Under the pieces are notes generated by a model, which saw only the letters and a program-made list of their open reading frames with translations, made no database searches and had not been told where the DNA came from. From the NCBI RefSeq assembly GCF_000169155.1, contig NZ_AAWL01000013.1, positions 1-64,000 on the forward strand: a stretch of DNA of 64,000 nt. Reading direction: 5' to 3'. Both the position numbers and the translations under genes were made by a program. The DNA comes from Thermosinus carboxydivorans Nor1. GTDB taxonomy: Bacteria > Bacillota > Negativicutes > Sporomusales > Thermosinaceae. The number at the start of each line of letters is the position of its first letter. Positions within the stretch are counted from its first letter, which is position 1. Of the stretch, positions 17,834-44,527 are shown in pieces.

Positions 17834-19240
17834 TTACAGTATTCTTGTCAGCGAGTGGAAGAGAATGACAAGGAACACCATAGAAGTTTTTATAACCGTC
17901 ATTACAAAGATATCGCCGTAGGAATCTTTGTGAGTGAGACCGCAAACGGCCAGCAGAGTGATAACCGCGCCATTGTGAGGCAGGGTGTCCATACCGCCGG
18001 AGGCCATGGAGGCAACACGGTGGAGGATTTCCGGCGACATGCCGATAGAGTTGGCCCAGGCCAGCCAGTCTTTGGCCATTAGGTCCAGGGCGATAGACAT
18101 ACCACCAGAGGCGGAACCGGTAATACCGGCAAGGACGTTTACGGTAACCGCTTCGGAGACCAGCGGGGAACCGCCAATCTTAATGCTCATGAGTGCAGAT
18201 GAAATGGACTTGAACCCGGGCAGCGATGCGATTACGTTGCCGTAGCCGACCTCGGACGCGGTGTTCATAATCGCCAGCAGCGAACCAATGGCGCCGGCAT
18301 TGAGGGCTTTGGCCAGACCGCCTGTGGGTAGTCGGTTGAAGCCTAGGGCGATTGCCAGCAAGATGCCGCAGACCAAGGCGATAATAAGTGCCCAAATACT
18401 GATGACATTTTTAACCGCCGGGGCGACAAGTGGCAGTTTCATTGCCTGGAACGGAGCGAGCAGGGAAGGATCCCAAGTGAAAACACGGGTCATGATAAAG
18501 TTGACAACTAATACGGTTAACAATGGCAAAACAGCAACATACCAGGCCGGCAGATTAATTTCGTCTTTGTGTTCCGGCTCGTTGACAGTATGGTTGCCGT
18601 AGCCTTCACCGGCAGCTTGGGCTGTTTTGCGGCGGCGTTCCAGCCACAGCATGCCCAAGATAAAAATGGCCGTGCCGCCCAAAAGGCCGCTTACCGGGGC
18701 GGCATAGATATTGGTTCCGAAAAAGTTAGTGGGAATAATGTTTTGGATTTGGGGAGTGCCTGGGAAAGAATCCATCGTGAAAGTAAAAGCCCCAAGGGCG
18801 ATGGAACCGGGGATCAAGCGCTTGGGAATGTCCGCTTCCCGGAAGAGGGCGGCGGCAAACGGATAAACGGCGAAAACAACAACGAACAGACTTACACCGC
18901 CGTAGGTCAAAACCGCTCCGGAGAGGACGACAGCGAGAATGGCCCGTTCTTTGCCGAGGCCTTTGATGATGGCATGGGCCACGCTTTTGGCCAGGCCGGT
19001 GTCTTCCATCACCTTGCCGAAGACGGCGCCGAGCATGAAAACGGGGAAGAAAGATTTAATATAGGTTACCGCTTTGCCCATGAAAAGTTCGGTATAGGCA
19101 GGCATTAACGGAAGGCCTGACATGGTTGCGGCGAGCAGCGCAAATACCGGGGCAAACAGAATTACGGAAAAACCACGGTAGGCAAAGAACATTAATAAAA
19201 ATAAACTCAGAATAATCCCGATTACTTCCATGGTAGTCAC
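17834..19240 (-). CDS. GntP-family permease, first copy
   Basis: This 468-residue membrane protein has about twelve hydrophobic segments and belongs to the GntP (gluconate/hydroxy acid:proton symporter) family; the conserved FGTNIYAAP and SASGGMSIALDLMA stretches are visible. The likely start is the GTG at 19240, four bases after AGGAGG, giving MTTMEV; the ATG three codons later is too distant. It is very similar along its whole length to the gene at 19894. A sigma-54 promoter lies about 160 bases upstream, so expression probably needs an enhancer-binding activator. The substrate is likely a small organic acid but cannot be named. Confidence 0.85.
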   Translation of the reverse strand: MTTMEVIGIILSLFLLMFFAYRGFSVILFAPVFALLAATMSGLPLMPAYTELFMGKAVTYIKSFFPVFMLGAVFGKVMEDTGLAKSVAHAIIKGLGKERAILAVVLSGAVLTYGGVSLFVVVFAVYPFAAALFREADIPKRLIPGSIALGAFTFTMDSFPGTPQIQNIIPTNFFGTNIYAAPVSGLLGGTAIFILGMLWLERRRKTAQAAGEGYGNHTVNEPEHKDEINLPAWYVAVLPLLTVLVVNFIMTRVFTWDPSLLAPFQAMKLPLVAPAVKNVISIWALIIALVCGILLAIALGFNRLPTGGLAKALNAGAIGSLLAIMNTASEVGYGNVIASLPGFKSISSALMSIKIGGSPLVSEAVTVNVLAGITGSASGGMSIALDLMAKDWLAWANSIGMSPEILHRVASMASGGMDTLPHNGAVITLLAVCGLTHKDSYGDIFVMTVIKTSMVFLVILFHSLTRIL

Positions 19241-19893: not shown

Positions 19894-21291
19894 TTACAGT
19901 ATTCCGGTAAGAGTATGAAGGGCTATTATGACAAAGACCATAAATGTTTTGATAATCGTCATGGCGAAAATGTCAGGGTAGGAATCCTTGTGAGTGAGAC
20001 CACAAACGGCTAGCAGGGTAATAACCGCACCATTGTGAGGCAGGGTATCCATACCACCGGAGGCCATCGAGGCGACTCTGTGGAGGACTTCTGGCGACAA
20101 GCCAATAGAGCTGGCCCAGGCCAGCCAGTCTTTGGCCATTAAGTCTAGGGCGATGGACATGCCGCCTGAAGCCGATCCAGTAATGCCTGCCAGGATATTA
20201 ACAGTAACTGCTTCAGATACGAGTGGGGAGCCGCCTACTTTGATGTTCATCAGGGCAGAGGAAATTTGCTTGAAGCCGGAAAGTGAAGCAACTACATTGC
20301 CATAACCAACCTCGGAGGCGGTATTCATGATGGCCAAGAGCGAACCGATAGCACCGGCATTCAAGGCTTTAGCCAGCCCGCCTTTGGGGAGCCGGTTGAA
20401 GCCAAGGACAACGGCAAGGGTAATGCCACACACAAGAGCGATAATGAGGGACCAGATGCCGATAACGTTTTTGACTGCCGGCGCCACCAGCGGAAGTTTC
20501 ATGGCCTGGAAGGCTTTCAGCAGGTTGGGATCCCAGTTGAATATGCGGGTCATAACAAAGTTGACCGCCAATACGGTGAGCAGCGGCAGTATGGCAACTT
20601 GCCAGGATGGTAAGTTGGCTTCATCTTTAATTTCCGGTTCATTCAGAGTATGGCTGCCGTAGCCTTCACCCGCAGCCTGAGCTTTCTTGCGACGGTGCTC
20701 CAGCCACATCATGCCAAGCACGAATATAGTGGAACCGCCAATCAGCCCTAAAATGGGCGCCGCGTAAATATTGGTTCCGAAAAAGTTGGTAGGAATAATG
20801 TTTTGGATTTGTGGAGTGCCAGGAAAAGCGTCCATAGTAAAGGTGAAGGAACCAAGGGCGATGGAACCGGGGATGAGGCGCTTGGGAATATCGGCTTCCT
20901 TAAACAGAGATGCAGCAAAAGGATAAACGGCGAATACCACGACGAACAGGCTGACACCGCCGTAGGTCAAGACGGCGCAGGCGAGGACGACCGACAGAAT
21001 AGCTCGTTCCTTGCCCAGGCTCTGAATAATGGCGTGGGCGATACTTTTGGCCAGGCCGGTATCTTCCATTACTTTACCAAATACAGCACCTAACATGAAT
21101 ACGGGAAAGAAAGACTTAACGTAGGTTACCGCTTTGGCCATGAACAGCTCGGTATAAGCGGGCATCAGGGGCAGTCCCGACATAGATGCAGCGAGCAGCG
21201 CGAATACAGGGGCAAACAGTATTACTGAAAAACCTCTGTAGGCAAAAAACATCAATAGAAACAAACTGAGAATTATACCTAAAACTTCCAT
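19894..21291 (-). CDS. GntP-family permease, second copy
   Basis: This 465-residue GntP permease is a close paralogue of the protein encoded at 17834. Differences are scattered conservative changes (for example KSVAHAIIKGLGKERAILAV versus KSIAHAIIQSLGKERAILSV). It starts at the ATG at 21291; AAAGGAGG lies 12 bases upstream and a weaker AGAAGGG lies closer. Its own sigma-54 promoter and inverted repeats precede it. The duplication includes promoter, gene and terminator, with silent and coding drift, so it is an old tandem duplication rather than an assembly repeat. Substrate unknown, likely a hydroxy or keto acid. Confidence 0.85.
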   Translation of the reverse strand: MEVLGIILSLFLLMFFAYRGFSVILFAPVFALLAASMSGLPLMPAYTELFMAKAVTYVKSFFPVFMLGAVFGKVMEDTGLAKSIAHAIIQSLGKERAILSVVLACAVLTYGGVSLFVVVFAVYPFAASLFKEADIPKRLIPGSIALGSFTFTMDAFPGTPQIQNIIPTNFFGTNIYAAPILGLIGGSTIFVLGMMWLEHRRKKAQAAGEGYGSHTLNEPEIKDEANLPSWQVAILPLLTVLAVNFVMTRIFNWDPNLLKAFQAMKLPLVAPAVKNVIGIWSLIIALVCGITLAVVLGFNRLPKGGLAKALNAGAIGSLLAIMNTASEVGYGNVVASLSGFKQISSALMNIKVGGSPLVSEAVTVNILAGITGSASGGMSIALDLMAKDWLAWASSIGLSPEVLHRVASMASGGMDTLPHNGAVITLLAVCGLTHKDSYPDIFAMTIIKTFMVFVIIALHTLTGIL

Positions 21292-27794: not shown

Positions 27795-27977
27795 ATGTTT
27801 GGCCTCGGTATGCCGGAACTTGTCTTAATTCTCATTATTGCCCTTGTTGTTTTTGGACCGTCGAAATTACCGGAAATGGGTTCGGCTCTTGGCAAAACCA
27901 TTCGTGAATTTCGCAAAGGTACCCAAGAGCCGGAAGAACAGGATGGGCATCAATCAAAAGCTGAAAAAGCGGGTTAA
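27795..27977 (+). CDS. tatA: Twin-arginine translocase subunit TatA
   Basis: This 60-residue protein has the TatA plan: a short N-terminus (MFGLGMPEL), one membrane helix (residues 9-20), the hinge FGPSKLPEMG and an amphipathic helix (GSALGKTIREFRKGTQ), then an acidic, charged tail. TatA oligomers form the transient pore through which folded proteins pass. The start follows AGGAGGTG. It leads a co-directional gene series containing two tatC genes and two Tat substrates. No tatB is present, as usual in Firmicutes, so this TatA may serve both roles. Confidence 0.93.
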   Translation: MFGLGMPELVLILIIALVVFGPSKLPEMGSALGKTIREFRKGTQEPEEQDGHQSKAEKAG

Positions 27978-28022
27978 AAAAGTCCCAACGGGCGAGAAAG
28001 ATAGGGGAGGGAGTACGCTGGT

Positions 28023-28727
28023 ATGAGTGAAAACGAAAAAAAGCCTGAAGGCCAAAATGAACAGGATAGCAAGTACATGTTCTTTACCCGCCGGGAATTT
28101 GTTATCGGCGCCGTAACCGGCGCAGCGGTCGGCTCGGTAATTACCGGCATCGCCACCAAGGGCGGCAGGGGCGCAACGCCGGCCAAACCGGGTGAAAGCG
28201 GCCAGCCGGGCGAGAAAAAAATCAAGGTCCCCAGCTATATTGCCGTAGACTACGCCAAATGCACCGGTTGCCGTATCTGCGAAGCGGAGTGTGCGCTCTT
28301 TCACTACAAAACCCCTGATTTGAGTCGCAGCCGCATCAAGGTCTATTATTTCAACCCGCCGGTTGATGTGCCTTCACTATGCGCCAAGTGCGGTGATGCG
28401 CCCTGTATCAAAGCCTGCCCGGAAAAAGTAGGGGCTTTGACCAAGGATAAGACCACCGGGGCTGTCATCCTTGACGAAAAGAAATGCATCGCCTGTTGGG
28501 CCTGTATCGAGCCTTGCGCCAAAGACCGGGCCGGCGTCATCCGCAAAAGTAAAGATGAAAAAGTTATTGTCGGTATTTGCGATCTGTGCGGCGGTGATCC
28601 GACCTGCGTGAAGGCCTGCCGGGAAGGCGCGCTGTCCATTGTGCCGGTCTATCAGGATGGCAAGTACTTTGCGGCTAAGCCGGCCGACATCGCCCGCGCC
28701 GTAGCCAAAAACCTTTATAAAGCCTAA
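28023..28727 (+). CDS. Tat-signal ferredoxin with four [4Fe-4S] clusters
   Basis: This 234-residue protein has a 21-residue polar N-region, then the Tat motif TRREFVIG and a hydrophobic, Gly-rich stretch without an AxA cleavage site, so it may stay membrane-anchored outside. Sixteen cysteines form four [4Fe-4S] motifs: CTGCRICEAEC, CAKCGDAPCIKAC, CIACWACIEPC and CDLCGGDPTCVKAC (from about residue 80 on). This is the HybA/DmsB/AorA type of electron-transfer subunit. It lies 14 bases before the AOR gene, so it is the likely partner of the enzyme and could carry it out of the cell as a Tat hitchhiker. Confidence 0.9.
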   Translation: MSENEKKPEGQNEQDSKYMFFTRREFVIGAVTGAAVGSVITGIATKGGRGATPAKPGESGQPGEKKIKVPSYIAVDYAKCTGCRICEAECALFHYKTPDLSRSRIKVYYFNPPVDVPSLCAKCGDAPCIKACPEKVGALTKDKTTGAVILDEKKCIACWACIEPCAKDRAGVIRKSKDEKVIVGICDLCGGDPTCVKACREGALSIVPVYQDGKYFAAKPADIARAVAKNLYKA

Positions 28728-28741
28728 GGGGGGAGATCATA

Positions 28742-30559
28742 ATGCCGAACGGATATATGGGAAAGATTTTAGAAATTGATTTAACCAGTAAAAAAATAAC
28801 TATGATTGATACAGACATGAAGCTGGCGGAAAAATTCGTCGGCGGCCGCGGCATGGGCGCAAAGTATCTCTGGGACCGCATCACGTCGCCTGGGCTCGAC
28901 CCGCTCAGTCCGGAAAACCCGCTGATGTTCTGGACAGGGCCGCTGACCGGGACGGCTATTCCCGGGCCATCTCGCATCACCGTCTGCACCAAATCGGCCA
29001 ACACTTCACCGCTGGCTTCGCCGTATCCTCATGCATCCACGGTAGCCTGGTCGTGTATGGGCGGGCAGTTTGCGCCGGAACTGAAATTCGCCGGCTATGA
29101 CGGCATTATCATCACCGGCAAAAGCGATAAACCGGTTTATATTGTTATCGACGATGCCAAAGTGGAAATTAAAGATGCGGCCCATCTTTGGGGTAAGAGT
29201 ACCAACCAGACAGACTTGCTGCTGCAAAAAGAGCTGGGGCCGCAGTTCCGTACCCTCTACATCGGTCCTGCCGGCGAAAACCTGGTTAAGTTCGCGGCCA
29301 TTATCAGCGAGTCGTCCCGTGCCGCCGGCCGCTCCGGTGTGGGCTGCGTCATGGGTTCGAAGAAACTCAAAGCCATCGCTGTCCGTGGCACCAATGTTGT
29401 TCCGGTTGCCGACCCGGAGGGTATGATCAAGTTGCGCAAGGAAATGTTTGCTACTCTGGAGAGCTGGAATGCCTATGACCAATGGCGCCGCTGGGGCACG
29501 GCGTCCATGCTGATTGCCTCCAGCCAGGCGGGTACGCACGTTACTCGCAATTTCCGGGAAGGTACTTATGAACAAGTCGATAAAATCGGCGCTCCCATCT
29601 CAGAAAAAGAGTTTTGGGTCAAGCACCGCTCCTGTTACCAATGTCCTTTGCATTGCATGAAAATCGGCCAGGTAACCAGTGGACCGTACAAGGGCACCAT
29701 TGCCGAGGGGCCGGAATATGAAACGGGTACGATGCATGGCTCAAACTGCCTGGTAACCGACCTCGGCGGCATGATGAAATCGATTGAATTGGCCGATGAC
29801 CTTGGTTTAGACAGCATCACTACCGGCAATATTCTTGGCTTTTTGATGGAGCTTTACGAAAAAGGAATTGTAACCCGGGCCGATTTGGACGGCATTGACA
29901 TGAAATGGGGCAATATTGAGGCCATGCTGGCAATCCAGCAGAAAATCGCCAAGCGGGAAGGCGTCGGCGACATCCTGGCCGAGGGGGTTAAAAAAGCGGC
30001 TGCTAAATTCGGCCAAGACGCCGAAAAGTATGCCATTCAAATTAAGGGACAGGAGTTGGCGGCCTGGAACATTCCCGCCAACCATGGCTTCGCCATCGTG
30101 TACGGCACCTCCAACCGCGGCGCTTGCCACCAGGTCGGGCCGACGGTGGAAGAACAGCATCGCCGCACCATGTGTGATACACTTGTAATTTGCCGTTTCC
30201 CCTACTATGGAATCGGCACCGCTCTATACCAGAAAGCCCTCAACGTTATCACCGGTTGGAAACTGGATGACGCCGGGTTTTTCAAGGTGGCCGAACGCAT
30301 CTGGAATTTGGAAAAAGTGTTCAATGCCCGGGAAGGTTTCCGCCGCGCCGACGACTATGTGCCCAAACGGTTCACCACCGAAGCTTTTACGGTAGGTCCG
30401 AAGAAAGGCGCGATTCTGCCGCCGGAAACGCAGGAGAAAATTCTCGACGAGTATTACACCAAGCGCGGCTGGGATGTCAAAACCAGCCTGCCCGGCGAGG
30501 CCAAGTTGAAAGAACTTGGCTTGGAAGACCTCGTGCCAGTCGTACAGGGTTTAAAATAA
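28742..30559 (+). CDS. AOR-family tungsten/molybdenum oxidoreductase, first copy
   Basis: This 605-residue protein is a full-length aldehyde:ferredoxin oxidoreductase family member, the same length as the Pyrococcus enzyme. The N-terminal domain (KFVGGRGMGAKYLWDR, MFWTGPLTGTAIPGPSR) forms the bis-pterin site. Cysteines of CYQCPLHC (near residues 298-305) and a later Cys in TMCDTLVIC (478 or 484) can hold the [4Fe-4S] cluster. Family enzymes oxidise aldehydes or reduce acids, while relatives such as YdhV and BamB differ in substrate, so the reaction is unknown here. It has no signal peptide, yet its neighbours are Tat proteins. The start follows AAGGGGGGAG. Confidence 0.92.
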   Translation: MPNGYMGKILEIDLTSKKITMIDTDMKLAEKFVGGRGMGAKYLWDRITSPGLDPLSPENPLMFWTGPLTGTAIPGPSRITVCTKSANTSPLASPYPHASTVAWSCMGGQFAPELKFAGYDGIIITGKSDKPVYIVIDDAKVEIKDAAHLWGKSTNQTDLLLQKELGPQFRTLYIGPAGENLVKFAAIISESSRAAGRSGVGCVMGSKKLKAIAVRGTNVVPVADPEGMIKLRKEMFATLESWNAYDQWRRWGTASMLIASSQAGTHVTRNFREGTYEQVDKIGAPISEKEFWVKHRSCYQCPLHCMKIGQVTSGPYKGTIAEGPEYETGTMHGSNCLVTDLGGMMKSIELADDLGLDSITTGNILGFLMELYEKGIVTRADLDGIDMKWGNIEAMLAIQQKIAKREGVGDILAEGVKKAAAKFGQDAEKYAIQIKGQELAAWNIPANHGFAIVYGTSNRGACHQVGPTVEEQHRRTMCDTLVICRFPYYGIGTALYQKALNVITGWKLDDAGFFKVAERIWNLEKVFNAREGFRRADDYVPKRFTTEAFTVGPKKGAILPPETQEKILDEYYTKRGWDVKTSLPGEAKLKELGLEDLVPVVQGLK

Positions 30560-30568
30560 AAGTTGCGA

Positions 30569-30600
30569 CATGCCAGTTGGCCAGTGGGCCAACTGGCATG
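30569..30600 (+). other. Perfect stem-loop inside the AOR operon
   Basis: A 14-bp perfect inverted repeat (CATGCCAGTTGGCC/GGCCAACTGGCATG) with an AGTG loop lies between the AOR and the next gene. It has no T run, so it is more likely an mRNA-stabilising or processing element than a terminator. Confidence 0.6.
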
Positions 30601-30624
30601 CCCGCCTTATGAGGAGGGGTCGCA

Positions 30625-31092
30625 ATGCGTCGAATAACGCCGGTGGTAATGGGGGTGACGGCGGCGACGCTGGCGGTGAGCGCCCAAGCTTTTCTGGCGG
30701 TGCAGCCGCCGCCGGCCTATGGGTTGTGCGTGGTCTGCCATGGCCGGGACCTAATTATTTGGCTTGCCGCCAAACTTACCGGCGCGGAAATGATCGTCGC
30801 CGCCGCATCGCAAGCGTGGCCTTTGTTAACAGTGCTCGGTATTTTTCTGGGTGCCTGGTATGCAGCCTGGTCCCATGACGAATATAAGTCCCAGTGGGTT
30901 GAACCACCGGTAACCGCCTTTTTCTGCGGCATGGTAATTATGTTTTTGGGCCTCGTTATTATGGCTTGCCCCACCCGGCTGCTGCTCCGGGCCGCCTACG
31001 GCGATTTTATTGGCGCCGCTGGCGCCGCTTCAGTCCTCATGGGAACGACAGCGGCTACGCTGGTCATGCGCTGGAGGGCGAAACGATGCTGA
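30625..31092 (+). CDS. YeeE/YedE-like transporter, first half
   Basis: This 155-residue protein has four hydrophobic segments and the sequence PPAYGLCVVCHGRDL near residue 30, which resembles a conserved segment of YeeE/YedE sulfur-compound transporters, especially those linked with selenium metabolism. The next gene encodes a second YeeE/YedE-like part and overlaps it by seven bases, so the two probably form one split transporter. YeeE imports thiosulfate; substrate here is inferred as a sulfur or selenium species. The first hydrophobic stretch could be read as a signal peptide but is more likely a membrane helix. The start follows GAGGAGGGG. Confidence 0.6.
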   Translation: MRRITPVVMGVTAATLAVSAQAFLAVQPPPAYGLCVVCHGRDLIIWLAAKLTGAEMIVAAASQAWPLLTVLGIFLGAWYAAWSHDEYKSQWVEPPVTAFFCGMVIMFLGLVIMACPTRLLLRAAYGDFIGAAGAASVLMGTTAATLVMRWRAKRC

Positions 31093-31649
31093 CGCCGTTT
31101 ATTTCCCTGCTTTTCGGTTTCATTATTGGCTATATGGCCCAGCGGTCGCGCATGTGTTTTATCGGTGGCTTGCGTGATTATGTTTTGGTCCGCGACACCG
31201 AACTGTTAAAGGGACTATTAAGTTTTGTCGTTACTGCGGCCATTTTATTTCCCCTAGTAAACGCTTTAGGCGGCGATACTCTCGGTTACCCCTGGTATAA
31301 CCGGGAAAAAGCCAAAACGGCGATCGAACTGGCTCGTGACTACTATGCCTTTGCCGCCTGTATGATCCCGGACGAGTTGTTGCTGGTCGTGCAAGCGGCC
31401 ATGGACAACGCTGTAAAAGGTATCCGGCTGCCGGGGGGCATGATTCTAACTTACACCGCCGTGACGGCGATCGCCGGGGGCCTGGGGATTGGCTACCTTT
31501 CGACGGTTGCCAACGGCTGCCCCTTGCGACAACACGTTATGGCGGCGTCAGGCAATAAAAGCGCCCGCGTTTACCTTTGTGGTTTCTATGCCGGCGCGGT
31601 AGTTTACACATACTGGCTTTACCCCTTTGTCAGCAAACTGCTTCCTTAG
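31086..31649 (+). CDS. YeeE/YedE-like transporter, second half
   Basis: This 187-residue protein has about five hydrophobic segments. It carries two YeeE/YedE landmarks with single cysteines: RSRMCFIGGLRDYVLVRD (residues 18-35) and NGCPLRQHVMAASG (near 142-155). In YeeE such cysteines relay thiosulfate through the membrane. It overlaps the preceding half by ATGCTGA, implying coupled translation and a complex. In most bacteria the two halves are fused. Its place beside a cysteine desulfurase and a DUF3343 gene supports a role in sulfur or selenium supply. Confidence 0.7.
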   Translation: MLTPFISLLFGFIIGYMAQRSRMCFIGGLRDYVLVRDTELLKGLLSFVVTAAILFPLVNALGGDTLGYPWYNREKAKTAIELARDYYAFAACMIPDELLLVVQAAMDNAVKGIRLPGGMILTYTAVTAIAGGLGIGYLSTVANGCPLRQHVMAASGNKSARVYLCGFYAGAVVYTYWLYPFVSKLLP

Positions 31650-31665
31650 CAAGGAGGTGACATTT

Positions 31666-32226
31666 TTGCAAGTCACACGGCGTACCTTTCTAAAAATATC
31701 AGGGGCAGCGATTGTCACAGCCGCGGCCTTCGGCGCTACCGGCGCGTTGTCGGCAAATGCCGAGCTGGTAAGGCCGCCGGGCGCGGTGGCGGAAGCGGAC
31801 TTTCGGTATTTGTGCCTGCGTTGTCACCAGTGTATCGACACATGTCCGGAAAAAGCGCTGGCCTCGGCCCATCTAGGTGACGGCTGGAGCAACGCCGCCA
31901 CACCGGTGCTGGTCTCAGGCTGCACGCTGTGCATGAAATGCACCCAGGTATGTCCCAGCGGGGCGCTCACGCCCATAGCGCCGCAAGCAGCGAAAATGGG
32001 CACGGCGGTAATTTTGGAAAATGAATGCGTTGGCTGCGACAAGTGCATTAAACCCTGCCCAACCGGAGCCATCAGTAAAGTGCCGGGCAAACGGCTCGTT
32101 CTGGTCGACCCGGCGAAATGCACCGGCTGTATGAGCTGCGTAAAAGCCTGTCCGGTAACACCGGTAGCCATTAAAGTAACGGCAGCAGGGGCCAAGCGGC
32201 CGCCTTTCAGCGCTGCTAAGAGTTAA
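31666..32226 (+). CDS. NapG/MauM-like Tat ferredoxin
   Basis: This 186-residue protein starts at TTG, eight bases after AAGGAGG. It begins with a model Tat signal (TRRTFLK, hydrophobic Ala-rich core, ANA cleavage site near residue 32). Four [4Fe-4S] motifs follow: CLRCHQCIDTC, CTLCMKCTQVC, CVGCDKCIKPC and CTGCMSCVKAC. This matches the NapG/MauM group, which pairs with the membrane polyferredoxin NapH to oxidise quinol; a NapH-like gene is at 36414. It would act outside the membrane. It is the second clear Tat substrate of the locus. Confidence 0.9.
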   Translation: MQVTRRTFLKISGAAIVTAAAFGATGALSANAELVRPPGAVAEADFRYLCLRCHQCIDTCPEKALASAHLGDGWSNAATPVLVSGCTLCMKCTQVCPSGALTPIAPQAAKMGTAVILENECVGCDKCIKPCPTGAISKVPGKRLVLVDPAKCTGCMSCVKACPVTPVAIKVTAAGAKRPPFSAAKS

Positions 32227-32238
32227 GCGAGGTGCGCT

Positions 32239-33396
32239 ATGCCAATTTATCTTGACAATGCTGCAACGTCATGGCCGAAGGACCCGGCCGTGCTGGCGGC
32301 GATGGCGGAGTATCTGGCCGTTGTCGGTGGCAATCCCGGCCGCTCGGGCCACACCATGTCGGCCGCCGCTGCCCGGATGGTTTTTGACGCCAGGGAAAAC
32401 ATTGCCCGCCTGTTTTCCTGCGCCGCACCTGAGCGGGTGATTTTTACCAAAAACGCCACCGAAGCGCTAAACATAGTATTATTCGGCGTTCTAAAACCTG
32501 GCGACCATGTGATAACCACTGCCATGGAACATAATGCCGTTATGCGACCGTTGCGCCGGTTGGAAAAGGACGGTGTTTGCCTGACCGTTGTCCCTTGTGA
32601 CAGTACCGGCCAGCTTGAGCCGCAGGCGGTGCGGCGGGCTATTACCTCCCGTACGCGGCTGGTGGTTATGACCCATGCGTCCAATGTGGCCGGTACGATC
32701 ATGCCGGTTGCCGAGGTGGGACGCATAACCCGGGAAGCAGGCGTGCTTTTCGCCGTCGATGCCGCCCAAACGGCCGGTAGCGAAGAGATTGACGTTACTG
32801 CGGCCAATATAGATTTTCTGGCCTTTACCGGTCATAAAGGTCTTGGCGGTCCGCAGGGGACCGGGGGACTGGTTATCGGGGATGGGGTTAAGCTGCCGCC
32901 GTTAATTTATGGCGGCACCGGCAGTCTGTCCGAGTCGGAATACCAGCCTGAGTTTCTTCCCGATAAACTGGAAAGCGGTACGCTCAATGCTATCGGGATC
33001 GCTGGGCTCGGCGCCGCCGTGGCGAAACTGAACGCTGGTGGCCTGGCCGGCATCAGACAGCACAAGCGGGAACTGATGGCAAAACTTTTCGCCGGGTTGC
33101 GGGATATACGGGGCATAACTGTGTATGGCGCCCAAACGCTGGCGTATAATGCCGGGGTTATCTCAATTAATGTGGCAGGTATGGTCTGTTCCGAAGTCGG
33201 TCTGGTGCTGGACCGCGTGTTCGGCATCATGACCAGAACCGGTTTGCACTGCGCACCGGCGGCCCATAAAACGCTGGGCACTTTTCCCCAGGGGACCGTC
33301 AGGCTCAGCGTCGGCCAATTTACGACCACGGCGGAGATTGACCAGACCCTTAACGCCTTAAGCCAAATCGCGGAAAAGGTACGGTGCGGCCTATGA
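32239..33396 (+). CDS. Class V aminotransferase-fold cysteine desulfurase
   Basis: This 385-residue pyridoxal-phosphate enzyme takes sulfur (or selenium) from cysteine (or selenocysteine). The N-terminal YLDNAATSWPKDP, the PLP-Lys in FTGHKGLGGPQGTG (near residue 200) and the catalytic Cys in TRTGLHCAPAAHKTLGTFP (near 337) are all present. The Cys loop is short, as in the SufS/CsdB class. It matches the family often found beside DUF3343 and YedE genes. The next gene overlaps its stop by four bases (ATGA), so the DUF3343 protein is probably its sulfur acceptor. Confidence 0.88.
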   Translation: MPIYLDNAATSWPKDPAVLAAMAEYLAVVGGNPGRSGHTMSAAAARMVFDARENIARLFSCAAPERVIFTKNATEALNIVLFGVLKPGDHVITTAMEHNAVMRPLRRLEKDGVCLTVVPCDSTGQLEPQAVRRAITSRTRLVVMTHASNVAGTIMPVAEVGRITREAGVLFAVDAAQTAGSEEIDVTAANIDFLAFTGHKGLGGPQGTGGLVIGDGVKLPPLIYGGTGSLSESEYQPEFLPDKLESGTLNAIGIAGLGAAVAKLNAGGLAGIRQHKRELMAKLFAGLRDIRGITVYGAQTLAYNAGVISINVAGMVCSEVGLVLDRVFGIMTRTGLHCAPAAHKTLGTFPQGTVRLSVGQFTTTAEIDQTLNALSQIAEKVRCGL

Positions 33397-33662
33397 GGTT
33401 GCTTTGCGGAATTATAACTTTTTATTCCTCCCAACATGCCGTTCAGGCCGAGAAGGTGTTGGCCCGGGAAGGGTTCACGGTTGAACTGATACCGGGACCG
33501 AAAGACATCAGCCCTAATTGCGGCGTGGCGCTAAAATGCGACCGCGACCGCTTGCAGGCGGCTGGGGAAACGCTGCGTCGCCACAAGGTGATGTTTGAAG
33601 CCTGCTATGAATATCGTCTGCAGCCGCAAAAGTCGCTGTTTGACAAACTACTGGGGCGGTGA
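33393..33662 (+). CDS. DUF3343 protein, putative sulfur/selenium carrier
   Basis: This 89-residue protein matches DUF3343: a ferredoxin-like small fold starting GIITFYSSQHAVQAEKVL, then PGPKDISPNCGVALKC (residues about 35-50) with two candidate carrier cysteines, and a third Cys near 70. DUF3343 proteins are annotated as putative Se/S carriers because of repeated linkage to cysteine desulfurases and selenium genes; the biochemistry is not settled. It overlaps the desulfurase by ATGA and tatC by GTGA, a tightly coupled trio. Confidence 0.8.
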   Translation: MRLLCGIITFYSSQHAVQAEKVLAREGFTVELIPGPKDISPNCGVALKCDRDRLQAAGETLRRHKVMFEACYEYRLQPQKSLFDKLLGR

Positions 33663-34390
33663 CGGCGGTGGATCAGACGCGGCTAAGCCTGGTCGAACAT
33701 TTAACGGATCTGCGAAAGGCGATCATAGTTGCCCTGCTTTCGTTTATCATCGCCGCCGCGGTCGGCTACTATCTGGCGCCGGCCCTGTTTATAGCGCTGA
33801 AGAAAGTGCTGCCTGTCGCCAATATTGTCTATTTCGGGCCCATCGACGGCTTTTACCTTCATATCCGCCTGGCGGTGCTTTTAGGATTAGTGTTGGCGTT
33901 CCCGGCCATTGCCGCGAGCATGGTCTGGTTCGTTGCGCCTGGCTTATACCGTCAGGAAAAGAGCATACTCGTTATCGGCGGGGTTGTGGTCGTGGCGCTT
34001 TTTGGCCTGGGGGCGGCTTACTCCCTGTTTGTGCTACTGCCACGGGTCATGGACTTTTTGCTTGCCTTCGCCCCTGCCGGCATGATGCCGTTCATTGCCG
34101 GAGAAGAGTACCTGAACTTTATTGTTTCTTTTCTCGTTTATACCGGAATGGCCTTTAATCTGCCGCTCTTTTTCTTTATCTTGCTGCGGTACAACCTTGT
34201 ATCGCCATCCTTCGTGGCTGGCCAGCGCAAGGCGTGCCTGGGGGTGTTGACAAGTCTCGCGTTGTTTCTTGCCCCGGGGGGAGACCTTACTCTGCAGCTA
34301 CTGTTCGCACTGCCCCTTTATCTTTTATTTGAAGTTGCTCTATACACGGCCAAACTTATTAAAAAGTACAGCATTCATTTTTGGAGGTGA
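33659..34390 (+). CDS. tatC: TatC, first copy (keeps signal-recognition residues)
   Basis: This 243-residue protein has six membrane segments of the Tat receptor. It keeps the twin-arginine recognition surface: HLTDLRK near residue 15 (E. coli HLIELRK, with Asp for Glu15) and APGLYRQEK near 96 (equivalent of Glu103). It has lost features of the TatA/TatB docking side: Asn in AFNLP where E. coli has Glu170, and APGGDLTLQ in place of TPPDVFSQ. GTG 33659 overlaps the DUF3343 stop. It is one of two TatC proteins in this locus with opposite patterns of loss; see the copy at 37368. Confidence 0.9.
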   Translation: MTAVDQTRLSLVEHLTDLRKAIIVALLSFIIAAAVGYYLAPALFIALKKVLPVANIVYFGPIDGFYLHIRLAVLLGLVLAFPAIAASMVWFVAPGLYRQEKSILVIGGVVVVALFGLGAAYSLFVLLPRVMDFLLAFAPAGMMPFIAGEEYLNFIVSFLVYTGMAFNLPLFFFILLRYNLVSPSFVAGQRKACLGVLTSLALFLAPGGDLTLQLLFALPLYLLFEVALYTAKLIKKYSIHFWR

Positions 34391-34396
34391 TCAACC

Positions 34397-36397
34397 GTGG
34401 AACAGACCAATGTCCTGCTTGAAGTCACGGTCAAGGGCCAGGTACGGCAGCCCGGCACCTATTCCGTCCAGCCCGGCCATAATTTGCTTGATATTGTCTT
34501 TAGTTATGCCGGGGGAATGGCGACAAACCGGTTTTTGTTAAAAGCCGTATTAGTCGGCGGGGCGGCGGGCCATTTTGTCGGCGAGGCGGAATTAAAGCAG
34601 CCGGTCAGCCAGTCGCAAGAAATCATGGTTTTTGACGAAGGCAGCTGCCTGGTCAATGTCGTCCGCCTGCTGCTGGTTTACAACCGCGTTACTCTGCTCA
34701 GTACGAGAGATGCCGGCTGCCAGGTATGTACCGCCGCCGTGGCCGAAGCGGTCAAACTGCTGGAACGCCTCACCACTTCGGTAGGAACCGCGCGGGATGT
34801 GGCCGAACTGGCCCGGATCGCCGGCAGCCAAAACCCGGATTGCCCCAGCCGCTGCGCCGCTCTCCGGCCGCTTAAAACGGCAATGGCCTTATGGTCGGAC
34901 GAGTTTGCCGCCCATGGCGCCGCACGGTGTCCGGCTAGCATTTGCAGTGAGATTATGCTTAGCCCCTGCGTCAATTCTTGTCCGGCCAACGTAGATTTGC
35001 CAGGGACGATTGCTCTAATGCAGATGGGGAAATTCGGCGATGCTTTAGCCCTGGGCCGGCATGATAATCCTTTCTTTTTAACGTGCGGCTATGTTTGCGA
35101 AGAACCGCCCTGCCAGAAAAACTGCAAGCGGCTTAATTTTGACGACGCGGTCTATTCGCAAAGTTTGCACCGGCATGCCGGCGATCAGGCAGTCAGGCAG
35201 GCCGGCTCGCTAGTCAAAGCATTGATCCACCCTACGCTCAAGCCGGGCCAAGTAACCGGTAAAAAAGTGGCGGTTGTCGGCGCCGGGCCGGCCGGTCTAA
35301 CGGCGGCCTACTTCCTGGTCCGCTTAGGCCACAAAGTTGCGGTTTATGAAAAAAATGACACCGCCGGCGGGATGGCCGCCTATGGCATACCGGCCTATCG
35401 TCTGCCCCGGTCGGTACTGGCGGCGGAAGTCGCGGCCATCGCCGCTTTGGGCGTGGAGCTTAAAACCGGTCACGCGCTGGGGCGGGATATTACCCTTGCC
35501 GGGTTGCAAGAACAGTATGATGCTGTGCTGCTGGCCATTGGCGCCGGCGCCAGCCGCCGCCTGGGTATTCCGGGCGAAGACTTGCCGGGCGTAACGCCGG
35601 CGCTGGCGTTTCTCCATCAGGCGGCGACTGGTGGAGCGGCGGACGTCGGCCCTCGCGTTCTCGTCGTGGGCGGCGGCAACGTGGCGGTCGATGCGGCCCG
35701 GACCGCTCGCCGGTTAGGGGCTGAGCAGGTGGACATGATGTGTGTTGAAGACCGGTTTGAAATGCCGGCTACCGTGCACGAAATTGCGGGCGCTGAAGCA
35801 GAAGGGGTACGCATTCAGGTGCTGACCGTGCCGGTCGAATTCAGCGGTGACGGCCGGGTGGCGGCGGTACGCTACGCGCCGGTCGAGCCCGGCCCCTACG
35901 ATGCCAAAGGCCGGCGCTGGCCGCCTAAGGTATTGGCGGACCAATTACGGGAAGCGGAATATGATACGGTGATCGTGGCCATTGGCCAGACTCCTGACCT
36001 GGATTGTCTGGCTGACGGTGGCATCACGCGGAATGGGCCGTTCATCGCCCATACGGGCGGCCAAGCAATCGGCTTGTCCGGCGTCTTCGTTGCCGGCGAC
36101 TGCGGCGGTCCGGTCAACACGGTGGTAAAAGCCGTCGGTTCGGGCAAGGAGGCAGCATATGTCATCCATAGCCATCTCACCGGTCGCACCGACCGGCTGA
36201 CTTCGCCACTGCGCGGGCAACTGGGCTGTTATACCGGCGATTATACCTGTCTGCCGGCGGGCCGGGCACAAATGCCGGAACAAGACGCAGCAACCCGGAC
36301 GCGGAATTTTGACCTCGTCGAATTGGGACTGAGTGATGAACAGGCCAGGTATGAAATGTTGCGCTGCATCTGTGCCGCCAAAGGCGGTATGCAATAA
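34397..36397 (+). CDS. SLBB/NuoF-tail/GltD-like flavoprotein
   Basis: This 666-residue protein joins three parts. Residues 1-80 form an SLBB-like domain (GQVRQPGTYSVQPGHNLLDI). Residues about 100-175 resemble the C-terminal cluster domain of NuoF, but CGxCxPC is reduced to AGCQVCTAAV and a CPSRC follows later. Residues about 195-640 are a GltD-type unit: cluster motifs CVNSCPANVDLP and CGYVCEEPPCQKNC, an FAD Rossmann fold (VAVVGAGPAGLTAAYFL), an NAD(P) fold (VLVVGGGNVAVDAARTARRL) and a second FAD segment (GVFVAGDCGG). It lacks the FMN domain of NuoF. It probably passes electrons between NAD(P)H and an Fe-S partner in the cytoplasm. GTG start after GGAGGTGATC. Confidence 0.88.
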   Translation: MEQTNVLLEVTVKGQVRQPGTYSVQPGHNLLDIVFSYAGGMATNRFLLKAVLVGGAAGHFVGEAELKQPVSQSQEIMVFDEGSCLVNVVRLLLVYNRVTLLSTRDAGCQVCTAAVAEAVKLLERLTTSVGTARDVAELARIAGSQNPDCPSRCAALRPLKTAMALWSDEFAAHGAARCPASICSEIMLSPCVNSCPANVDLPGTIALMQMGKFGDALALGRHDNPFFLTCGYVCEEPPCQKNCKRLNFDDAVYSQSLHRHAGDQAVRQAGSLVKALIHPTLKPGQVTGKKVAVVGAGPAGLTAAYFLVRLGHKVAVYEKNDTAGGMAAYGIPAYRLPRSVLAAEVAAIAALGVELKTGHALGRDITLAGLQEQYDAVLLAIGAGASRRLGIPGEDLPGVTPALAFLHQAATGGAADVGPRVLVVGGGNVAVDAARTARRLGAEQVDMMCVEDRFEMPATVHEIAGAEAEGVRIQVLTVPVEFSGDGRVAAVRYAPVEPGPYDAKGRRWPPKVLADQLREAEYDTVIVAIGQTPDLDCLADGGITRNGPFIAHTGGQAIGLSGVFVAGDCGGPVNTVVKAVGSGKEAAYVIHSHLTGRTDRLTSPLRGQLGCYTGDYTCLPAGRAQMPEQDAATRTRNFDLVELGLSDEQARYEMLRCICAAKGGMQ

Positions 36398-36413
36398 GGG
36401 GGGAGATGGAAAC

Positions 36414-37352
36414 ATGACGCCCAAACAGGTGAAATTGGTGCGCACTGTCATTCAAGTTGTCTTTTTTTTCTTGCTTGTTGTGGTTTTGACCGGTGCTTTT
36501 TGCGCAGTGCGCCTGGGCGGCAGCGCTAATCTTACCTGCTCGTTAGGCATGCTGCAGCTGACGTTGGGGGCTAGAGAGGTGCTATGGGGGACGGTTATTT
36601 CGGGCAGTTTGCTTTTGGTTGTTACCGTGCTTTTAGGCCGGGTTTTCTGCGGTTGGGTGTGTCCCTTCGGCGCCGTCCTCGATTGGCTGGATAAACCGCT
36701 GTCTCGGCTGCGGCTGGCCGGTAACAAGGTACCATCGGCGCTTCTAAATCCCGATAACCGTCACATTAAGTATGGCGTGCTGGGCGGGGCGCTGCTCGCC
36801 GCCGGCATATTGCGCTATCCCGCGTTTTGTGCTCTTTGCCCGGTAGGCACGACCTGCCGCACAGCCGGTCTGCAGGGGTTAAATATAGGGCTGGAGACGG
36901 CCGTGCTGCCGTTGGCCGCCAGTTTGGATACGGTGCGCAAGCGCTTCTGGTGCAAGGTGCTATGCCCGATTGGAGCGCTCCTAGGGCTCTTTTCTCGGTT
37001 CAGCCTGCTTAAAATCCGCCTGCCCTGGGACCGCTGCACCGGCTGCAACCGCTGTGAACAGGCCTGTGCTATGGATAACCGGCCCCATCAAGGCGGTCAT
37101 GACCGGCTTAAAACCGACCCGGCAGTGTTGACAGCCCTTGTTGACCTTGGCGTCCCCGATTTGCTTGACCGCCCCGGGCGGTATGAGGACTACCCACAAA
37201 GCATAAAAGACCTGCTCAAGCAAAAAATGAAAAGCCTGGCTGTGGACCATAGCGAGTGTTCGCGCTGCTATTCCTGCCTGGCCGCCTGTCCGGTCACAAC
37301 CCGGGAGGCAGCCCCAAGCATCGCGGTTCAGCGCAGCGGCTTAAGCGCCTAA
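36414..37352 (+). CDS. NapH-like membrane polyferredoxin
   Basis: This 312-residue protein has about four membrane helices and the NapH hallmark CGWVCPFGAVLDW near residue 79, plus CKVLCPIGALLGL near 182. Two ferredoxin motifs lie towards the C-terminus: CTGCNRCEQAC near 206 and CSRCYSCLAACP near 285. In the NapGH system this type of protein takes electrons from quinol and passes them to the exported NapG; the NapG-like partner is at 31666. An alternative is electron flow the other way, to quinone. The ATG at 36414 follows AAGGGGGGAG. Confidence 0.88.
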   Translation: MTPKQVKLVRTVIQVVFFFLLVVVLTGAFCAVRLGGSANLTCSLGMLQLTLGAREVLWGTVISGSLLLVVTVLLGRVFCGWVCPFGAVLDWLDKPLSRLRLAGNKVPSALLNPDNRHIKYGVLGGALLAAGILRYPAFCALCPVGTTCRTAGLQGLNIGLETAVLPLAASLDTVRKRFWCKVLCPIGALLGLFSRFSLLKIRLPWDRCTGCNRCEQACAMDNRPHQGGHDRLKTDPAVLTALVDLGVPDLLDRPGRYEDYPQSIKDLLKQKMKSLAVDHSECSRCYSCLAACPVTTREAAPSIAVQRSGLSA

Positions 37353-37367
37353 AAGGAGAAAGCTAAG

Positions 37368-38120
37368 ATGGAAAGCCAGGAATTTTACAGCCTGCTAAGC
37401 CACATCATCGCGCGGGCCCGCCGCCGCTTGTTATGGTTAATCCTGCTGTTGGCCGGTACCAGCACCCTTGGCTATTGGTGGGCCGACGGCGCCATGAAAT
37501 ACATGTTCAGGATGGTTAGACAGGTGATTTTTGTCAGTCCGGCTGAAGCTTTCGTCACCAAAATCAAGGTGGCATTAACCATTGGCCTGGTTCTTGCCCT
37601 GCCGCTACTACTTTATCTGCTGATTGGCGTGGTGCGCACCAGGGTGAAGGGGCTGACGCCTACTACTCACGTTTTACTCACCGCTGTCAGCTTTGGCCTG
37701 TTTACCGGCGGTGCGGCTTTCTGCTTCTATGCTGTATTGCCGGTCGGTATTCAGTTTTTACTGGACTTTGCCACTTTGGAGATGCAGCCACTGCTCTCGG
37801 CCGGGCGTTTTGTGTCGTTTGTGCTGATGTGTCTGTTGGTTTTCGGGATAATGTTTGAACTGCCGTTGGTTATCATGCTGTTGACCTCCATGGGAATATT
37901 GACGGTGGAAAAACTGCGGGCCAAACGGCGCCATGCGATTTTGGGCGTTTTTATCATTGCAGGGATTATTACGCCGTCGCCGGATGTACTGTCGCAAATT
38001 TTGCTTGCTCTCCCGCTGCTGGCCCTCTATGAAATCGGGATTTTTCTCACCCGGTTTTGTACGCGGCCTGTTGAGCGCCTGCCGGAACTGCCAGCCGACC
38101 AGCAGCAGCTTTTTATGTAG
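37368..38120 (+). CDS. tatC: TatC, second copy (keeps TatA/TatB-side residues)
   Basis: This 250-residue six-helix protein is a divergent TatC. It keeps MFELP near residue 165 (Glu170 of E. coli TatC) and TPSPDVLSQILLALP near 205 (the TPPDVFSQ motif). It has lost the twin-arginine recognition residues: the N-terminal motif is HIIARARRR instead of HLxELR, and the loop that should read APALYxxE is RTRVKGLTP, so the Glu103 equivalent is missing. Alone it is unlikely to recognise a Tat signal. It ends the locus and is followed by a terminator. Its pattern is the mirror of the TatC at 33659. Confidence 0.88.
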   Translation: MESQEFYSLLSHIIARARRRLLWLILLLAGTSTLGYWWADGAMKYMFRMVRQVIFVSPAEAFVTKIKVALTIGLVLALPLLLYLLIGVVRTRVKGLTPTTHVLLTAVSFGLFTGGAAFCFYAVLPVGIQFLLDFATLEMQPLLSAGRFVSFVLMCLLVFGIMFELPLVIMLLTSMGILTVEKLRAKRRHAILGVFIIAGIITPSPDVLSQILLALPLLALYEIGIFLTRFCTRPVERLPELPADQQQLFM

Positions 38121-38138: not shown

Positions 38139-38165
38139 AGACTTGGTGCAGCCAGGTCTTTTTTC
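38139..38165 (+). terminator. Terminator at end of Tat/AOR locus
   Basis: An 8-bp stem (AGACTTGG/CCAGGTCT, one G-U pair) with a TGCAG loop is followed by a T-rich run. Confidence 0.8.
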
Positions 38166-38241
38166 TTTATATGCGACTATTTCGCTAAAACTAAATTTGT
38201 AGTAATATGATGTTATTCGGTAAACCAGGGAGGTGCGGGTT

Positions 38242-42782: not shown

Positions 42783-42805
42783 AATAATTTACAGGGAGGG
42801 GTTTG

Positions 42806-44527
42806 ATGTTTTACCGTGTCAACATGGCTACTTTGACCATCACGCCGGAAGACGGGGCGGCCTATAAAGGGCTTGGCGGCCGGGCATTAACTTCGCGTAT
42901 TGTTAGCGCCGAAGTGGATCCCAACGCTCATCCGCTCGGCAAACAGAACAAACTGGTATTTGCTACCGGACTGCTCTCTGGCACGGGTGCTCCGAATGCC
43001 GGCCGCATGTCGCTCGGGGCCAAGAGTCCGCTGACAGGCACCATCAAGGAGAGCAATGTCGGCGGCGCCATGGGCCACAAGCTGGGGCGGCTGGGAATTG
43101 AAGCCATTATCGTGGAAGACTTGCCCCAAGATGATAAAACTTACGTTCTCAAGGTTGACAAAGACGGTTTATCCCTTATCGAAATGCCCGAGCTCAAAGG
43201 GCTAAACATCTATGATGCCGTTGCCAAACTGCAGGCTAAGTTTGGGGAAAAAGTGGCGATCGGTGTTATCGGCACGGCCGGAGAAAACAAGATGGCCTCG
43301 GCTTGTGTTGGTTTCACCGACATGGAAGGGGCGCCCACCCGGCAAGCGGGCCGTGGCGGTCTTGGCGCGGTCATGGCCAGTAAAGGCCTTAAGGCGATTG
43401 TCGTTGACGACACAGGTGTAAACAAAGTTTCCTTTGCCGACGAAGCCGCCTTCCGGGCCGGAGCGAAAAAACTGGCCAATGCCCTGCTGAAACATCCCGT
43501 TACGTCGCAGGGTCTGCCTACCTATGGCACTGACGTTTTAGTTAATACCCTGAGCGAAGCCGGCGGCTTGCCAACCCGCAACTTTAGCGTTGGCCGTTTT
43601 GAGGGCGCCAACAATATCGGCGGCGAAACGCTGCATGCCATCTGCAAGGAGCGGGGCGGCAAAACCGGCCACGCTTGCTCGCCCGGGTGCATCATCCGCT
43701 GCTCGAATATTTATAAAGACGCGGCCGGAAATGTGGTAACCGGCGGTCTCGAATATGAGAGCTGCTGGTCATTGGGCGCCGATTGCGGCATTGATAATCT
43801 GGACGACATCGCCGTTCTTAACCGTATGTGCGACGATTATGGCGTTGACACCATCGAGATGGGTGTCACGCTGGGCGTAGCCATGGAAGCCGGCCTGGCT
43901 AAGTTTGGCGATGGCAAGGCGGCCATTGAACTGCTCAAGGAAGTAGGCAAAGCTAGCCCGCTCGGCCGTATTCTCGGCGCTGGCGCCGCCGTTACCGGCA
44001 AGGCCTTCGGCGTCAGACGCGTGCCGGTTGTAAAGGGTCAGGCCATTCCGGCCTATGACCCGCGGGCCGTCAAAGGTATCGGTGTAACTTACGCTACTAC
44101 TACCATGGGGGCTGACCATACAGCCGGCTACGCCGTTGCCGCCAATATTCTCGGGGTAGGCGGCAAAGTGGATCCGCTCAGTCCAGCCGGCCAGGTCGAA
44201 CTTTCGCGCAACCTGCAAATCGCAACATCTTTCCTGGATAGCACCGGCCTTTGTTTGTTTGTGGCCTTTGCCATCCTCGACATTCCCGAAGGGCTCGATG
44301 GTATTGTCGAAATGTGCAACGCCCGCTATGGCTGGAACAAGTCGCTTGATGATTATCTGGAACTGGGCAAGCAAGTCTTGCGCGACGAACGGGCGTTCAA
44401 TAAAGCGGCGGGTTTCAACGACGATGCCGACGACCTGCCTGACTTTTTCCGCACCGAACCGCTGCCGCCGCACAATACCGTTTTTGATGTGCCGAAAGAG
44501 GAGCTTAAGTCGCTCTTTAACTTCTAA
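42806..44527 (+). CDS. AOR-family tungsten/molybdenum oxidoreductase, second copy
   Basis: This 573-residue AOR-family protein has a slightly shortened N-terminus. The bis-pterin region includes ATGLLSGTGAPNAGRM and QAGRGGLGAVMASKGLKAI. The [4Fe-4S] ligands appear as CSPGCIIRC (near residues 292-300; spacing differs by one from the CxxCxxxC of the copy at 28742) and a later Cys in DSTGLCLFVAF. It belongs to a different subgroup from the first AOR. No dedicated ferredoxin gene adjoins it. It is cytoplasmic and probably ferredoxin-linked; substrate unknown. The ATG at 42806 follows AGGGAGGGG and a riboswitch. Confidence 0.9.
   Translation: MFYRVNMATLTITPEDGAAYKGLGGRALTSRIVSAEVDPNAHPLGKQNKLVFATGLLSGTGAPNAGRMSLGAKSPLTGTIKESNVGGAMGHKLGRLGIEAIIVEDLPQDDKTYVLKVDKDGLSLIEMPELKGLNIYDAVAKLQAKFGEKVAIGVIGTAGENKMASACVGFTDMEGAPTRQAGRGGLGAVMASKGLKAIVVDDTGVNKVSFADEAAFRAGAKKLANALLKHPVTSQGLPTYGTDVLVNTLSEAGGLPTRNFSVGRFEGANNIGGETLHAICKERGGKTGHACSPGCIIRCSNIYKDAAGNVVTGGLEYESCWSLGADCGIDNLDDIAVLNRMCDDYGVDTIEMGVTLGVAMEAGLAKFGDGKAAIELLKEVGKASPLGRILGAGAAVTGKAFGVRRVPVVKGQAIPAYDPRAVKGIGVTYATTTMGADHTAGYAVAANILGVGGKVDPLSPAGQVELSRNLQIATSFLDSTGLCLFVAFAILDIPEGLDGIVEMCNARYGWNKSLDDYLELGKQVLRDERAFNKAAGFNDDADDLPDFFRTEPLPPHNTVFDVPKEELKSLFNF

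Follow-up and report, generated by a model that had tools for sequence, protein, structure and literature searches.

The window, by which we mean the 64,000 nucleotides of Thermosinus carboxydivorans Nor1 that were analysed (contig NZ_AAWL01000013.1, positions 1 to 64,000), contains a tightly packed operon on the + strand that spans positions 27795-38120 and runs from tatA, its first gene and only TatA-family gene, to the second of two tatC genes, here termed tatC1 and tatC2 (Table 1). Two iron-sulphur proteins of the operon are likely Tat cargo, their signals TRREFVI and TRRTFLK being of the ordinary type and kept in relatives, while the aldehyde:ferredoxin oxidoreductase (AOR) presumably rides on a signal-bearing partner for its export. 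The YeeE/YedE-like transporter appears as two overlapping half-size genes, an arrangement that is also seen in relatives. Based on its position, the stem-loop directly 3' of tatC2 is the probable end of the operon, terminator-like sites in the region as a whole being no more frequent than expected by chance. Elsewhere in the window, a second AOR-family gene (42803-44527) encodes a product with 27% identity to the AOR of the operon, and two near-alike permease-like genes lie in tandem on the - strand (17834-19240 and 19894-21291).

Table 1. Features of the tatA-to-tatC2 operon, with positions in the window
Feature	Position	Strand	Evidence or remark
tatA (60 aa), polar Glu at position 8	27795..27977	+	PF02416 (73 bits) and NCBIfam tatAE, both above cut-off
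4Fe-4S protein with twin-arginine signal TRREFVI	28023..28727	+	Likely Tat cargo; RR motif in 5/5 genomes
Aldehyde:ferredoxin oxidoreductase (AOR, W/Mo)	28742..30559	+	Without a signal of its own
Two half-size membrane ORFs that overlap; the second resembles YeeE/YedE (transport of sulphur or selenium)	30625..31649	+	
Second 4Fe-4S protein, twin-arginine signal TRRTFLK	31627..32226	+	Likely Tat cargo
Cysteine desulfurase / selenocysteine lyase-like protein	32239..33396	+	TIGR01977, above cut-off
Putative Se/S carrier protein	33384..33662	+	PF11823
tatC1	33659..34390	+	Receptor-live (H12, D15, F94 and E103 kept); TM4-TM6 face remodelled
SLBB and GltD-like FAD/NAD(P) oxidoreductase	34397..36397	+	
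NapH-like membrane 4Fe-4S protein	36414..37352	+	
tatC2	37368..38120	+	Signal-blind as judged by residues (H12, E15, F94, P97 and E103 lost; T208, D211, Q215 and E170 kept)
Terminator-like stem-loop with T-run, directly 3' of tatC2	38139..38168	+	Position

Both tatC reading frames are intact, tatC1 (GTG start) encoding 243 aa and tatC2 (ATG start) 250 aa. Each product is a full-length match to PF00902 (cut-off 25.1), at 138 bits over positions 1-208 for TatC1 and 163 bits over positions 3-208 for TatC2; on the TatC equivalog model TIGR00945 (threshold 132.7 bits) TatC2 scores above the threshold (138.5) and TatC1 below it (120.4). The motifs that the first-pass annotation had quoted for the two proteins are present exactly as written, and the genes lie where it had placed them. 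AlphaFold2 monomers built from five-sequence alignments of TatC1 and TatC2 were poor (pLDDT 51 and 55) and unfit for a fold search.

Residues are numbered here according to E. coli TatC, in which cryo-EM revealed that the signal is touched by H12, E15, F94, Y100 and E103 (PMC13323110). The receptor set that was scored comprises H12, E/D15, F94 and E103, and the receptor, docking and cap groups of residues were taken from the literature before any counting, although after the finding had pointed there. Among 82 reference TatCs, nearly all of which derive from one phylum, 81 possess all four receptor residues and none has lost more than one. TatC1 retains four of four in each of five orthologues, whereas TatC2 retains none in any of its five, a loss that lies far beyond ordinary variation given the near-invariance of the references. 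The first-pass annotation had proposed precisely this, a signal-reading surface kept in TatC1 and lost in TatC2, and the alignment to many TatCs bears it out. Over those columns in which conservation among the references reaches 90% or more, receptor retention amounts to 32/35 for TatC1 and 3/35 for TatC2. The receptor segments carry a mean net charge of +0.6 in TatC1, +6.4 in TatC2 and +2.1 in the references. The receptor site of TatC2 is thus charge-reversed, forming a basic pocket in all five orthologues, and since the acidic pocket has turned basic TatC2 would be expected to be unable to bind twin-arginine signals.

The second surface of interest is the TatA/TatB docking site, which has been mapped to M205, T208 and Q215 (PMC13323110; PMC5201420). 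TatC2 carries the complete polar cluster (T/S208, D211, Q215) in 5/5 orthologues, as T208, D211 and Q215, and the copy in the window also has E170, in agreement with the FELP and TPSPDVLSQ motifs that it had been said to keep. TatC1, for which loss of this set had been claimed, presents a mixed picture: D211 and Q215 are kept in 5/5 orthologues, and position 208 is either Ser, which is normal, or Ala (2/5, including the copy in the window). It deviates at the conserved columns F165 (T/G/S), G182 (D/N), F201 (T/L), A(M)205 (L) and P210 (G/S), those at 165, 201, 205 and 210 being found in all five orthologues, and also at the periplasmic-cap positions 66 and 150. Retention over the conserved docking columns is 15/30 (50%) for TatC1 and 26/30 (87%) for TatC2, and over the remaining conserved columns 0.70 and 0.88, respectively. 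The Asn at position 170 of TatC1 is indeed present, as had been noted; this position is not diagnostic, because it is Gln in 24 and Asn in 4 of the 84 ordinary TatCs (28 in total), and Glu170 was discarded on this ground as an indicator of TatA docking. The residue pattern points to a docking face in TatC1 that has been remodelled, a partial change rather than a clean loss.

Examination of 60 relatives identified four other genomes with the same two extra TatCs approximately 3 kb apart, so that the pair occurs in five genomes from three families and neither member is ever found alone. Across the 28 genomes of the order, TatC1 is present in five and TatC2 is restricted to these five, so that the two types always occur together, a point that the first-pass annotation had proposed to check. 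The gene order of the operon is kept in all five genomes, the AOR orthologue (81-98% identity) is confined to these same five among 300 genomes of the class, and a scan of the genome collection with TatC1 returned only two loci, both of them known already. Between two species, dN/dS is 0.24 for TatC1, 0.07 for the ordinary TatC and approximately 0.09 for TatC2, a value that indicates purifying selection on TatC2. All five genomes hold a third, ordinary TatC elsewhere, which in T. carboxydivorans adjoins its own tatA, the TatA-family genes of this genome totalling three. The third of these (L040:1183-1383) lies on a 6.7-kb contig (C43), the three TatC matches all being located on other contigs. 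A smaller cousin of the operon occurs in G048 (L259:6208-8949), where only tatA, a twin-arginine ferredoxin and an AOR (55% identity) are found and from which the TatC pair is absent; the two TatCs of that genome sit elsewhere and both have the receptor kept. The TatC pair may consequently be an add-on to a smaller module. In the genome G023, a broken TatC with stops and a frame change (L041:5688-6436) adjoins an intact tatA.

Searches of 398 genomes of the phylum, many of them drafts, with a TatC2 profile and subsequent follow-up revealed that comparable combinations of a live copy (receptor residues kept) and a blind copy (receptor residues lost) are not peculiar to the AOR operon. Nineteen complete adjacent pairs, tatC_a-tatC_b, are present in nine other families. 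The upstream tatC_a has all four receptor residues in 19/19 cases, while the downstream tatC_b keeps none, one, two or three in 5, 6, 7 and 1 cases, respectively. With regard to docking, T208 and D211 are invariant in tatC_b (19/19) and Q215 is found in 17/19; docking-cell retention in the other lineages is 87% for live and 88% for blind copies. Retention at other conserved positions is likewise similar (0.89 for tatC_b, 0.88 for TatC2 and 0.90 for tatC_a). In three tandem pairs (L069, L125 and L142) it is the live copy that has lost Q215 and the blind copy that has kept it, and in two the blind copy has lost it; such loss affects 5/38 paired copies and 0/82 references (Fisher p 0.003, relatedness ignored). 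In the G198 pair (L151:1480-3070) the polar cluster is apparently split, the live copy being without T208 and the blind copy without Q215.

A tatA lies directly 5' of the tandem pair in 14 loci, and 14 tandem-pair genomes have a single TatA-family gene. TatC searches found no third TatC in the tandem-pair genomes, two of which (G246 and G428) are single-contig assemblies, and the tandem pair therefore represents, as far as the assemblies go, the Tat system of these organisms. Where one TatA-family gene and only the pair are found, both copies would share that one TatA. Unlinked live and blind copies were encountered in two more families, a live partner being present in 7/7 genomes: in f152 (G365 and G507) the blind copy lies apart from the live copy, which adjoins tatA, and in f39 all genomes (5/5) have one live copy and, unlinked to it, one blind copy. 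The blind copies of different lineages have suffered loss at the same place and have no common replacement motif. In three control genomes with two TatCs (G097, G385 and G237), both copies are receptor-live. Two further TatCs (L236:1441-2184 and L240:1417-2154) lack only E103, which is replaced by Lys and Trp, respectively, and are possible intermediates; their genomes also hold an intact TatC.

Phylogenetic trees place the a copies and the live copy of f152 in one clade (support 100/98), and the b copies and the blind copy of f152 in a weaker one (88/69), while the f39 blind copies fall apart from b, the clade that contains them being supported at 99/95. This separation suggests that, on these trees, the signal-blind TatC has arisen at least twice. 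By the same topology, the 19 tandem pairs are mostly one old duplication that has been retained, not 19 independent events. TatC1 and TatC2 each form a clade of their own, both on long branches that are placed apart from a and b when free; a grouping of TatC2 with the b copies was not rejected by the AU test (p 0.79), and neither was one that unites TatC1 and the a copies (p 0.76).

Oligomerisation is obligatory for TatC, which functions in no other state (PMC5102672). The E. coli complex was described by cryo-EM in 2026 as (TatBC)3, with an asymmetric TatA1B2C3 form being proposed; every TatA/TatB helix is inserted there where TM5-6 of one TatC face TM1 of its neighbour (PMC13323110). Given this obligate oligomerisation, mixing of live and blind copies would render a complex asymmetric by construction, and the recurrence of live/blind pairs in other lineages favours a heteromer. 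Our preferred reading, which we regard as probable, is that TatC1 and TatC2 are non-interchangeable subunits of one dedicated asymmetric Tat core for AOR/ferredoxin cargo; that built-in asymmetry is the function of the live/blind mixture is, in our judgement, probable to the same degree. TatC1 would bind the TRRxF signals of the cargo, while TatC2 would contribute contacts within the trimer and, with its intact polar cluster, a site for TatA, without binding signals. The docking surface that the blind copy has kept intact would then sit beside the receptor of the live copy, and the mixing would set the number and position of signal-peptide sites, with fewer than three of them live. The same principle could extend to the tatA-tatC_a-tatC_b systems, which would often constitute the whole Tat machine. 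We infer co-assembly, blindness and one-sided docking from residue patterns, co-occurrence, operon linkage and selection; against the pairing, the ordinary TatC in every AOR-pair genome could assemble with either copy.

The first-pass annotation had envisaged a heteromer with split tasks, in which one TatC reads the cargo and the other recruits TatA. Confinement of the receptor to TatC1 and the recurrence of such pairs uphold the first half of this idea, while the second half stands less well, since TatC1 retains D211 and Q215 and a handover of TatA recruitment is not supported in the form proposed. A strict division, whereby TatC1 has given up TatA docking altogether and TatC2 does nothing other than recruit TatA, could draw on the low docking retention of TatC1 compared to TatC2, on its Leu205 and Gly/Ser210, which are unlike nearly all references, and on the three tandem pairs in which Q215 survives in the blind copy only. 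We nevertheless consider it rather unlikely, as the remaining polar residues of TatC1 (including a normal Ser208 in some orthologues), the frequency of Gln or Asn at position 170 in ordinary TatCs, and the two tandem pairs in which it is the blind copy that lacks Q215 all argue against it. TatC1 is also fast-evolving overall, so that its docking loss may in part represent general divergence. As TatC1 and most live partners keep docking residues, the two copies may differ in task only with respect to the binding of signals.

Other roles for TatC2 were weighed on the same evidence. Decay of TatC2 and of the tatC_b copies as redundant duplicates would account for the loss of the most conserved site of the family, but is very improbable and was rejected for TatC2 on the basis of its dN/dS and intact frames: reading frames are intact in 5/5 orthologues and, over many families, in 19 tandem pairs, and other conserved columns are kept as they are in live copies. 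It is unlikely that TatC2 acts as a regulator or spare (poison or stoichiometry) subunit of the ordinary TatC trimer, which TatC1 would likewise join. Dominant-negative TatC variants of E. coli show that mixed oligomers form (PMC5102672), an ordinary TatC is available in all five genomes, and no tatA was found beside the operon in 3/5 of them, for which reason TatA at least would be shared; yet TatC1 and TatC2 occur together in one operon in 5/5, and the tandem-pair genomes elsewhere have no third TatC that our searches could find. An equally unlikely arrangement is that of two separate homo-oligomeric Tat systems, TatC1 serving twin-arginine cargo and TatC2 another ligand or signal type. Organisms of the Bacillus kind with two TatCs do run separate systems (PMC3827258), and the control genomes mentioned above carry two receptor-live TatCs, but these conventional cases keep the receptor in both copies, whereas TatC2 has none of it and a basic pocket in all five orthologues, and the blind copies of different lineages share no common new motif.

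Returning to the asymmetric heteromer, a broader proposition may be drawn from these sequence comparisons, on which we are evenly divided: TatA together with two obligate TatCs, one live and one blind, might constitute a third Tat architecture that is widespread in Bacillota and has at least two origins, its symmetry being broken by duplication of TatC and not of TatA. The AOR operon would be an extreme, cargo-dedicated version in which the docking face is starting to specialise. This proposition bears on a dispute of 2026, in which it was argued on the one hand that the Tat core needs built-in asymmetry, with only one working signal site (PMC13323110), and on the other that each of the three sites is functional and that structural asymmetry is impossible in TatAC systems of the Bacillus type (PMC13186574). 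In the open-licence literature searched, we found no report of TatA-only bacteria whose live and blind TatCs are encoded separately; the nearest printed idea is the suggestion of a 2026 review concerning the halobacterial TatC1/double-TatC pair (PMC13186574).

Several known systems resemble the one described here in part. One is that of Halobacterium salinarum, where TatC1 and the double TatC2 (TatCt) are likewise encoded by two different TatC genes side by side (PMC13186574), although one of the halobacterial genes consists of two fused TatCs plus additional helices while those of the window are separate single domains of 243 and 250 aa. With regard to cargo, the membrane-associated Class V tungsten oxidoreductases (PMC13328260; Cetobacterium somerae, L207) also combine an AOR-family enzyme, a Tat-dependent partner and nearby tatA/tatC; however, the AOR of the window is only approximately 30% identical to the C. 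somerae enzyme, the S subunit of C. somerae and the Tat-signal ferredoxin beside the AOR show no similarity, and the C. somerae locus has one tatC. Bacillus subtilis, with TatAdCd and TatAyCy, is a low-GC Gram-positive relative with two TatCs and TatA-only systems, but these are two separate systems with different cargo (PMC3827258), and comparable two-TatC genomes in our set are receptor-live in both copies, which the AOR pair is not. E. coli TatA1B2C3 (PMC13323110) shares the protein family and, presumably, the trimeric logic, being an asymmetric complex for which one complete signal site has been proposed. Its asymmetry derives from two TatA-family paralogues and one TatC, in contrast to the tandem-pair genomes, which have two TatCs and often one TatA-family gene. 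TatA-only bacteria with separate live and blind TatC genes represent natural experiments on the asymmetry dispute, in which, unlike in a homotrimer, each of the two subunits is amenable to separate mutation, counting and labelling.
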